64,000 nucleotides of DNA from Vibrio ponticus (GTDB taxonomy: Bacteria; Pseudomonadota; Gammaproteobacteria; Enterobacterales; Vibrionaceae), in contig NZ_AP019657.1 in the NCBI RefSeq assembly GCF_009938225.1, positions 1,674,001 through 1,738,000 on the forward strand, given 5' to 3'. Of the stretch, positions 33,911-51,703 are shown piece by piece. The notes beneath the pieces are model-generated. The model worked only from the letters and a program-made list of their open reading frames with translations, made no database searches and was not told the origin of the DNA. Both the position numbers and the translations under genes were made by a program. Positions within the stretch are counted from its first letter, which is position 1, and each line of letters opens with the position of its first letter.

Positions 33911-33950
33911 AACAAGGGCGATTAAATTAGTTAATCGCCCTTGTTTTTTA
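33911..33950 (+). terminator. Terminator after chemoreceptor gene
   Basis: ACAAGGGCGATTAA (33912-33925) pairs with TTAATCGCCCTTGT (33931-33944), followed by a T-run. Confidence 0.93.
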
Positions 33951-34034
33951 TAGACCTGAACATTATATGGTTACTAAGGCTTGCTGTGTTTTACCTTAGT
34001 ACCCCGTTTTGCAAGCCAACCATGAGGAAAAGCT

Positions 34035-35204
34035 ATGGCAATTCATGTTGGCATAATTGACCAAGATCCAATTCGTTTGGTCACACCATTATTAGATAAT
34101 AGAACCCTCAGTCAGCACATTGTGTTCATTGGGATAGATGCGCAAAAAGAGATGTATGAGCGCCTACACAGCGTGTTGGCAAAACGCCAAATCACCTCAG
34201 AATTTTTTGAAATACCTAACGTCGCTAATACGTCACGAATCAAACAAGCCGTCATTCAATTGGCTGATGAATTAAAATCCAGAGGCGGTGCGATAAAACT
34301 CAATGCAAGCTGTGGTTTACGTCATCGTTTGTTATCGGTCTACGAAGTTTTCCGTAGCTATCATTGGCCTATCTTTGTTGTGGAACCAAACAGTGATCGC
34401 CTGTGCTGGCTCTACCCCGAAGGTCGTGAAGATACGCAAGTAGAAGACTTAATCACCATTGACGATTATCTGACCATCTTCGGTGCTCGCGGTGAGTTTG
34501 CCGAGCATAATATCCCTCCTCAGCTTGATAAAAAGCTCTATGAACTTGGTGAACGTTGGGCAAGCAATGCCCTAGAGTTAGGCCCTGGTCTCGCTACCCT
34601 CAACTACCTTGCAACCACCTGCCGTAAAGAACAACGTTTGGATGTTGAACTGTCTGAAAAGCAGCAAGGCTATCGTGAACTCAACATGCTTCTCTCTGAT
34701 CTCGTCGAAGCGCAAATCGCAACCTACGAGAACGGTATTTTGACTTTTGCGAGTGAGGAAGCACGTCGCTTCTCCAATGGTGAGTGGCTTGAAACTTTAG
34801 TCCACAGTACCGTACGTCAAATTCAACAAGATATGCCGACCATTCAAGACCACTCGCTGAATGTTCAGGTTTACCGCCAGCTAGGTGAACGTGAAGTACG
34901 TAATGAACTGGACGTGGCGTCTGTGGTCAATAACAAGCTGCACATCATCGAATGTAAAACCAAAGGCATGCGTGATGACGGGGATGATACGCTTTACAAG
35001 CTAGAATCACTGCGTGACCTATTAGGTGGCCTGCAAGCTCGCGCAATGTTAGTCAGCTTCCGCCCGCTACGTTATAACGACATCACCCGCGCAGAAGATC
35101 TTGGTCTGGCACTGATTGGTCCTGACGAGCTTAAAGATCTGAAAACTCATCTTGCCCAATGGTTTGATGAAGCTGGCGGCTCAGAGGATTGCTCTGACTG
35201 CTAA
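34035..35204 (+). CDS. DUF1887 protein: CARF-like sensor plus PD-(D/E)XK nuclease (VC1899-like)
   Basis: 389 residues. An N-terminal Rossmann-like domain (1-about 150; HIVFIGIDAQKEM, IKLNASCGLRHRLL, WPIFVVEP) resembles CARF domains that bind cyclic oligoadenylate. A middle winged-helix-like segment (about 165-240) follows. The C-terminal domain has a PD-(D/E)XK site: E250 or E253, D293 in NELDVA, and E306-x-K308 in IIECKTKG. It closely resembles V. cholerae VC1899 (PDB 1XMX), the DUF1887 family that includes the cA4-activated nucleases Card1/Can2. No cas gene or CRISPR array is in the window. The usual TGG-type CARF motif is replaced by NASCGLRHRL, so the ligand may differ. SD GAGGAAAAG precedes the ATG; a terminator follows. 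Confidence 0.88.
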   Translation: MAIHVGIIDQDPIRLVTPLLDNRTLSQHIVFIGIDAQKEMYERLHSVLAKRQITSEFFEIPNVANTSRIKQAVIQLADELKSRGGAIKLNASCGLRHRLLSVYEVFRSYHWPIFVVEPNSDRLCWLYPEGREDTQVEDLITIDDYLTIFGARGEFAEHNIPPQLDKKLYELGERWASNALELGPGLATLNYLATTCRKEQRLDVELSEKQQGYRELNMLLSDLVEAQIATYENGILTFASEEARRFSNGEWLETLVHSTVRQIQQDMPTIQDHSLNVQVYRQLGEREVRNELDVASVVNNKLHIIECKTKGMRDDGDDTLYKLESLRDLLGGLQARAMLVSFRPLRYNDITRAEDLGLALIGPDELKDLKTHLAQWFDEAGGSEDCSDC

Positions 35205-51204: not shown

Positions 51205-51703
51205 AAAGCGAAACGCAAAACATGAATGTTTTGCTACGGATTACGGAACGTAAAGCGCAATTACGCTTTACTACGGAGACGAGAACGCAGCGAGTTAACT
51301 CGCTGCTACGGATAAAAAAATCGTTACTCCAACCGTTTTATTTGTTCTTGTTTTTCTCACAGCGTAGCGTTTTGTAGCTCAGCACTTGTTGCTGAGCGTT
51401 CCCGCATCTCAAACTAAAAAGGGTCGGCAAACGCCAACCCTTTCGTTTATTCGTGTTTTTCTCACAGCGCAGCGTCCCGTAGCTCGGCACTTGCTGCTGA
51501 GCGTTCCCGCATCGCAAACTAAAAAAGGTCGGCAATGCCGACCCTTTCATTTGTTCGTATTTTTCTCGCAGCGCAGCGTTTCGTAGCTCAGCACTTGTTG
51601 CTGAGCGTTCCCGCATCCCGACTCCCGAAGCAACGCTTAGCGTTGCGTTCTCGACTCTCAATTCTCAATTCCCGCAGTGAGGCGAAGCCGAACGGTCCCC
51701 CTG
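51205..51703. repeat. Intergenic cluster of seven related hairpins
   Basis: Between ald and yfbV are seven stem-loops, most bounded by GAACG on one side and TACGRA on the other, with different stem sequences. Plus-oriented: 51215-51234, 51250-51271, 51287-51306. Minus-oriented: 51377-51397, 51482-51502, 51586-51606, 51630-51646 (this last ends TTCGG). Flanks are conserved while arms vary together, so the structure seems to be maintained. No protein gene is supported here. Confidence 0.8.
51337..51627. repeat. Tandem repeat of ~105 bp, nearly three copies
   Basis: Units begin at about 51337, 51441 and 51545; the CTCRCAGCG landmark recurs at 51356, 51461 and 51565 (105 and 104 bp). Each unit has the GCTCAGCA hairpin; the first two also hold a GGGTCGGCAA hairpin (51421-51440 and 51527-51545). 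A 107-codon open frame on the minus strand (51338-51661) is only the repeat read in frame. Confidence 0.85.

Follow-up and report, generated by a model that had tools for sequence, protein, structure and literature searches.

Can2 (7BDV) and Card1 (6WXW) sit with type III CRISPR systems and respond to cA4. What, then, could a protein with the same CARF and PD-(D/E)XK domains and the same catalytic set do in Vibrio ponticus, where its gene lies among housekeeping genes? The gene in question was found in a 64-kb stretch of the V. ponticus genome, hereafter the window. By the account of the 2021 Can2 paper, its nearest solved relative, VC1899 (1XMX), counts among the earliest CARF proteins to be studied by structure; the paper leaves its role open, describes it as an orphan CARF protein and suggests a degenerate enzyme cast adrift (PMC7969007). 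In that paper, VC1899 left supercoiled plasmid neither nicked nor degraded, its RNase activity was very low and unregulated by cA4, and the cA4-binding residues of Can2 are missing from it (PMC7969007). The 2020 Can1 paper describes cA4 as modelled into VC1899 with few clashes (PMC6981274). Makarova and others noted that the VC1899 family has members outside CRISPR contexts, of which one is clustered with Ter genes (e.g. Daci_4198, PMC4012209). A literature search that left most subscription journals outside its reach returned no title or abstract start with VC1899 control or heat shock as its subject.

Domain architecture of the window protein

The preliminary description of this locus had assigned the Can2/Card1 architecture, and profile searches bear this out. 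The 389-residue protein belongs to the DUF1887/PF09002 family, with its endonuclease domain well above the curated Pfam cut-off (Card1_endonuc, PF09002; 212 bits against 26.4). The PADLOC profile CARF_PDDEXK spans the whole protein at 489.9 bits. CARF_Card1 (PF23400) scored 18.6 bits at residues 11–145, under its cut-off of 24.6; the N-terminal CARF domain is assigned by homology, through CARF_PDDEXK and the end-to-end alignment with 1XMX, Can2 and Card1. In phmmer searches with the 389-residue protein, VC1899 (1xmx) was the nearest solved protein, aligned over residues 1–383 (E 3.4e-217), followed by Can2 (7bdv, E 3.2e-29) and Card1 (6wxw, E 6.3e-6). D293 and E306-C-K308 of the nuclease site stand where they had first been placed. 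By homology, 34035–35204 encodes a Can2/Card1-type protein with CARF and PD-(D/E)XK domains, which has the following features:

34035..35204, + strand: open reading frame of the VC1899 orthologue (CARF, middle domain, PD-(D/E)XK); ATG start, 389 aa, intact
34035..34484, + strand: CARF domain, residues 1–150; weak PF23400 match and profile alignment to 1XMX, 7bdv and 6wxw
34059..34076, + strand: pocket strand-1 motif D9-x-D11-P-x-R14; identical in orthologues, sites taken from the Can2 paper
34302..34328, + strand: pocket strand-4 motif NASCGLRHR, residues 90–98; a TGGTK-type motif often stands here in CRISPR-linked relatives
34485..34748, + strand: middle domain, residues 151–238; 35 positions invariant in all 105 orthologues
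34749..35183, + strand: PD-(D/E)XK nuclease domain, residues 239–383; PF09002 match at 241–378
34905..34958, + strand: catalytic residues E291, D293, E306 and K308; identical in all orthologues, other copies and CRISPR-linked relatives compared

The start of the protein, GIIDQDP, is reminiscent of receiver domains. A receiver domain at this place was rejected, as Pfam gave no Response_reg match at E up to 1.

The neighbouring genes, named by reading, are a chemoreceptor, norR and fadR, in agreement with the housekeeping surroundings first described. A PADLOC scan of ten window neighbours yielded no strong defence match, eight being without any match at E 1e-5; a HIT-family neighbour matched ThsC weakly, and the NorR-like neighbour matched the RtcR profile over residues 170–507 only, which is the AAA+/HTH part. 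The block next to the gene in the window (hinT-like and others) recurs beside it at three more Vibrio loci for which long flanks were compared. Other genera have different neighbours, with a frame read as uridine phosphorylase convergent to the gene in several loci, and a partner gene that accompanies the CARF nuclease was not observed among the genera compared. The norR/hcp neighbourhood was dropped as a functional clue, being absent by BLAST beside the orthologue in the other-genus loci compared. A viral contig search, reaching close relatives only, gave no match.

CRISPR and cyclase partners

The absence of CRISPR, noted at the outset for the window, extends to the genome as far as profile searches go. 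No CRISPR array was seen in the window when direct-repeat families of ≥22 nt with copies within 120 nt were sought. The sole such family comprises three 105-nt copies at 51326–51639, arranged in tandem (100, 87 and 77% identity) and corresponding to 35 codons each if translated. The whole V. ponticus genome gave no match to Cas1 and none to the type III-D Cas10 profile PDLC01415. Its five Cas10-palm matches (22–28 bits) all fall in proteins that score 113–143 bits to GGDEF, and we found no linkage of the gene to type III CRISPR or cas10 in this genome. The genome search for cas10 and CD-NTase genes that the preliminary description had proposed added one SMODS match under the cut-off (21.4 bits against 26.5), in a 256-aa nucleotidyltransferase (L178, 1642–2409; C1 near 922.6 kb) that may be an unrelated small nucleotidyltransferase.

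A cyclase encoded elsewhere in the cell had been proposed as the partner of the nuclease. Taken as a general partner, this idea fits poorly with the census of 296 Vibrionaceae genomes. Cas10 occurs in at least 13 of them, seven at about 100 bits by PF22335 and six others, a disjoint set, by PADLOC PDLC01415; this count is a lower bound, as Cas10 proteins scoring in the GGDEF range are missed. One genome (G013) was missed by both profiles although type III genes adjoin its second copy of the nuclease gene, and three with 41–51 bits (G037, G293, G210) were left out of the count. A census by PF22335 alone was discarded: it matches 253 of the 296 genomes plus E. coli, because it cross-matches GGDEF proteins. 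SMODS exceeds its cut-off in 22 of the 296. As recognised Cas10 and SMODS genes occur in a small minority of genomes, neither a Cas10 nor a SMODS CD-NTase can be the general partner; the census covers these two groups of cyclases. Among cyclic dinucleotides, c-di-GMP is a possible candidate ligand.

A core gene of Vibrionaceae

An orthologue is present in 290 of 296 Vibrionaceae genomes and in 12 of 13 genera, in keeping with the earlier suggestion of a core Vibrio gene. Four of the six genomes without an orthologue are small (1.0–2.6 Mb). In an order-wide sample of 394 genomes, 45 gave a match, 34 inside Vibrionaceae and 11 outside. Three orthologues (L050, L055 and L056, in G057, G084 and G016) are split into two pieces by a stop or a frame change, real or from assembly; the split copies suggest a dispensable gene that is occasionally lost.

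Eight of 27 re-examined genomes, picked to include those with several matches, carry an extra copy elsewhere. Six of these extra copies (G113, G268, two in G202, G013 and G099) are less than about 32% identical and lie beside type III CRISPR genes, among others Cas10, Cas7-III-D or Csm3, RT-Cas1 and Csx16-CARF. A CRISPR-linked relative and the core gene can thus coexist in one genome. Separate CRISPR-linked CARF-PD-(D/E)XK genes by type III genes, in addition to a core copy, were observed for L073, L074, L075, L076, L077 and L078; two of these loci hold reverse-transcriptase parts, with RT-Cas1 in L075. In two type III-D loci (L068 and L070, in G368 and G438), the CARF nuclease is separated from cas10 by viperin-like (pVip) and LeoA/LeoBC-like genes. 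On contig C2 of G286, a second orphan copy (L060; L080, 8247–9407) is 58% identical and lies close to TerD and TelA genes. It resembles in this respect the published Ter-cluster genes, which are non-CRISPR members like the window gene, although the core copy in the window is not near Ter genes.

Our tree covers 62 of 136 distinct rows. In it, 33 core copies and the second copies L059 and L060 form one clade (support 97/99), at whose base sits a 41% identical copy from G001 (100/100). Long branches make the way in which the remaining lineages join uncertain. Homologues without an apparent Cas gene nearby, neighbours being judged by reading, occur in Pseudoalteromonas, Shewanella, Kangiellaceae, Thalassotalea, Beggiatoa and an Acidobacteria MAG. 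The Sedimenticola copy retains NATGGTK and adjoins csm1 and a RAMP gene. We read the window gene as a vertically inherited, CRISPR-free core gene of Vibrionaceae.

An intact catalytic site and a different CARF pocket

Conservation was compared in 105 distinct orthologue sequences (61–100% identity), in another 17 copies that are orphans or second copies, and in 14 CRISPR-linked relatives. The latter are defined by Cas genes nearby (L062, L067–L070, L072–L078, L097 and L168), the linkage of L067, L069 and L072 resting on a Cas10 palm of more than 100 bits. E291, D293, E306 and K308 are identical in 105/105, 17/17 and 14/14 sequences respectively. Loss of the catalytic residues in relatives, which would have spoken against a nuclease, is therefore not seen in any of the 105 orthologues.

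The pocket presents a different picture. Ser19, Thr42, Lys99 and Tyr118 of the Can2 cA4 pocket correspond to Asp9, Ile34, Arg96 and Val115, so that the window protein lacks these four cA4-binding residues; arginine for lysine is the sole similar substitution. Where Can2 and Card1 have the pocket serine and lysine, all 105 orthologues have D9 and R96, together with D11 and R14. Lysine at site 96 is found in 8 of the 14 CRISPR-linked relatives and in none of the orthologues, and arginine in 16 of the 17 other orphan or second copies; at site 9, 8 of the 14 CRISPR-linked relatives have serine. The orthologue VC1899 shares the catalytic residues and almost the whole pocket with the window protein; at site 34 it has Asp and the window protein Ile. 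The Can2 paper reports a negative cA4 test for VC1899 (PMC7969007), which, unlike the response of Can2 and Card1, goes against activation by cA4.

When orthologues were thinned to 47 rows of less than 92% mutual identity, V115 and Q334 were invariant, L95 and P118 each stood in 46 rows and Q10 in 38, and site 34 was variable. The pocket sites had been chosen from the structure comparison of the Can2 paper (PMC7969007), independently of conservation. Conservation is higher at the nine that lie in the CARF domain than at randomly drawn CARF sites (P 0.014; 0.00075 minus site 34). A very divergent member from G001, a 2.6-Mb genome (L058/L082, the 41% copy), has an altered pocket with NASCGHRK, Tyr115 and Glu118. 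The middle domain holds 35 positions invariant in the 105 orthologues, 11 of which recur in seven or more of the 14 CRISPR-linked relatives. Among 5460 sequence pairs, the 77 whose dS lies between 0.3 and 1.2 gave a median dN/dS of 0.021. These patterns indicate that the CARF pocket of the core clade is remodelled and fixed, that the middle domain is unusually fixed within this clade, and that the gene is under strong purifying selection and kept, not decaying.

A putative sigma-32-like promoter outside Vibrio

The short sigma-32 consensus is given as TTGAA / CnATnT (PMC9866376). A first scan of known boxes found strict sigma-32-like sites in 8 of 105 orthologue upstreams; base shuffles averaged 0.0. 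We then scored upstreams with a weighted sigma-32 consensus, whose full-length weights are untrained. Scores of ≥17 were reached by 43/105 orthologue upstreams compared with 11/717 control upstreams of other genes from the longer loci, and the two best carry the exact form CTTGAAA-N14-CCCCATAT. At ≥18 there were 35 sense and 0 antisense sites in the 105 upstreams, and none of the 43 high-scoring sites overlaps another frame of ≥120 aa. As calibration, 17 groES upstreams scored 15.0–17.5; a heat-shock gene therefore need not score high, and 15–16 proves nothing.

The sites are unevenly spread over the family. Scores of ≥17 occur in 41 of 56 non-Vibrio orthologues and in 2 of 49 from Vibrio. Related genomes inflate these counts, 37 of the 105 being Photobacterium or g8. 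The last 150 nt are distinct in 103 of the 105 upstreams; after thinning to <92% protein identity (47 rows), 18/24 non-Vibrio and 1/23 Vibrio upstreams still reach 17. With genus names behind g-codes inferred, the high scorers comprise 36 of 37 Photobacterium (33 named, 4 in g8), 2/2 of g6 (Thaumasiovibrio) and 1/1 each of g7, g12 and g13. Enterovibrio (16.5, 16.5), g3 (16.5, 15.5), Salinivibrio or g10 (16.0, 16.0), Aliivibrio or g11 (14.5–15.5, seven rows), g5 (14.0) and one Photobacterium (14.0) stay under 17. One Vibrio upstream (L004) reaches 17 at –55, inside the 5'-UTR hairpin region described below and off the shared place.

None of the 14 CRISPR-linked relatives reaches 17 (range 12.5–16.5), and among the 17 other orphan or second copies the second copy of G286 alone does (L060, 18.5). 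The promoter is thus a Vibrionaceae-clade feature at most. Genome-wide, the strict pattern has three sites in G113 and two in G007, one in each lying at the CARF-nuclease gene, and none in G042; in V. ponticus it occurs once, 364 bp before a frame read as trigger factor. The reversed pattern, as control, occurs 0, 1, 0 and 1 times in G113, G007, G042 and V. ponticus. Patterns for LexA, CRP, FNR, Fur, ArgR, PhoB, sigma-54, NorR and PurR were each found in 0 or 1 of the 105 upstreams, so these nine regulators have no shared box there. Outside Vibrio, these site counts make a transcriptional link to sigma-32 probable.

The upstream region in Vibrio

Three features precede the gene in the window:

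33911..33945, + strand: terminator-like hairpin past the chemoreceptor gene; inverted repeat reported on the minus strand only, plus-strand T-run by reading
33940..33968, + strand: putative promoter CTTGTTT-N14-CATTATAT; spaced like the sigma-32-like sites outside Vibrio, with a weak consensus match
33978..34017, + strand: 5'-UTR hairpin GGCTTGC...GCAAGCC of the Vibrio clade, just downstream of the putative promoter

The window upstream scores under 17. Of the 105 orthologues, 85 retain the spacing CTTG-N21-ATNT, most of Vibrio included (shuffles: mean 3.0, maximum 8), as do 15 of 20 further Vibrio loci; one of the 20 scores 17 at another place. In the Vibrio clade, CTTGTTT merges with the T-run behind the chemoreceptor terminator; in the window, the 3' arm of the hairpin and the T-run after it contain the CTTG of the –35-like box. 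Part of the CTTG-N21-ATNT conservation in Vibrio may belong to the terminator. A sigma-70 scan found no site in the window upstream stretch. The promoter appears to have diverged in Vibrio proper, where a heat-shock-type site is ambiguous, the window included.

For the 5'-UTR hairpin, 18 selected Vibrio upstreams show six predicted pairs, each unchanged in 15–18 of the 18. The changes comprise five one-sided and no two-sided ones, and two rows break three pairs. Rfam gave three matches far under the gathering score, which we take as chance.

Possible roles of the core CARF nuclease

The gene is near-universal in the family, its cutting site is intact, its pocket is fixed in a different form and, in many genera outside Vibrio, its promoter looks heat-shock-like. 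Thus, it may serve the stress response rather than CRISPR. Our preferred reading, to which we give about an even chance, is a CRISPR-free CARF nuclease with an ancient link to heat shock and a trigger other than cA4, its nuclease activity being predicted. Misfolded proteins would act through sigma-32 to raise the level of the enzyme. The dimer would then bind an endogenous non-cA4 ligand in its CARF pocket, perhaps a nucleotide or the ends of broken RNA, and in the ligand-bound state the PD-(D/E)XK domains would cut specific RNA or DNA. For the broken RNA ends, RtcR offers a parallel: its CARF domain binds tRNA fragments, namely 5' tRNA halves with a cyclic phosphate (PMC7790460). Like the window protein in this proposal, RtcR employs a CARF domain outside CRISPR, in an RNA-damage response; in contrast, its CARF domain is fused to AAA+ and HTH parts, and it is a transcription activator, not a nuclease. 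The most likely activity would be nucleic-acid cutting under stress once the non-cA4 ligand fills the pocket, where we infer ligand, substrate and catalysis alike. Several points weigh against this reading: the rarity of high-scoring sites in Vibrio, the near absence of nuclease activity in VC1899, the variable site 34 and the incomplete conservation of Q10, the few clashes of cA4 when modelled into VC1899 (PMC6981274), and the split copies.

The Can2 paper's view, a CRISPR effector cast adrift as a degenerate relic with residual activity and no current role, could draw on the weak RNase of VC1899, not regulated by cA4, its lack of DNase activity (PMC7969007) and the few split copies. However, a gene kept in 290 of 296 genomes, with catalytic residues in 105/105, a dN/dS of about 0.02 and a conserved pocket and upstream site, makes decay very unlikely. 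The preliminary description had suggested a nucleotide-triggered defence or stress nuclease that works with a cyclase encoded elsewhere; in the defence version, a cyclic oligo- or dinucleotide from another part of the cell would switch the enzyme on. The fold and family of Can2/Card1 agree with such a role, and CD-NTases and Cas10 do occur in some genomes. GGDEF diguanylate cyclases in V. ponticus would make c-di-GMP available, and stress control and defence could be compatible, as phage infection can perturb protein folding. Yet few genomes have a recognised Cas10 or SMODS gene, VC1899 did not respond to cA4, and V. ponticus, without Cas1 or a PDLC01415 Cas10, offers GGDEF cross-matches and a single sub-cut-off SMODS match. 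With no strong defence match among the ten window neighbours and no viral contig match among the close relatives reached, we regard this explanation as improbable; the sequences lean rather towards stress control, by way of the sigma-32-like promoter in genera other than Vibrio.

A further alternative, a special substrate or a scaffold role, seems unlikely as well. The middle domain, with 35 invariant positions of which just 11 are common to half of the CRISPR-linked relatives, would suit a special substrate, and the heat-shock-type site is weak in Vibrio. Against this, a scaffold has no obvious need for a fixed charged pocket (D9, D11, R14 and R96 in 105/105), and the genera compared show no repair or RNA-processing neighbour, as judged from reading and from BLAST against the window.

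A bolder form of the heat-shock reading can be offered tentatively: a CRISPR second-messenger effector re-wired into the heat-shock response, that is, a CARF nuclease of the sigma-32 regulon with a new endogenous ligand (e.g. stress-broken RNA ends) and a new D-x-D-P-x-R / SCGLRH pocket. In the papers cited, VC1899 is treated as a single orphan; here its orthologues form a core gene of the whole family, possibly linked to sigma-32. What is new, as far as sequence comparison reaches, is a sigma-32-like promoter before most of the orthologues outside Vibrio. Together with the constraint on the core gene and its fixed alternative pocket, this moves the VC1899 family from "orphan, maybe degenerate" to a directly testable question. 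If the heat-shock reading is true, an immune-effector fold would have been taken into the general stress response, and the ligand would act as a signal for a CARF domain that is not part of CRISPR, a use for which RtcR is the precedent (PMC7790460).
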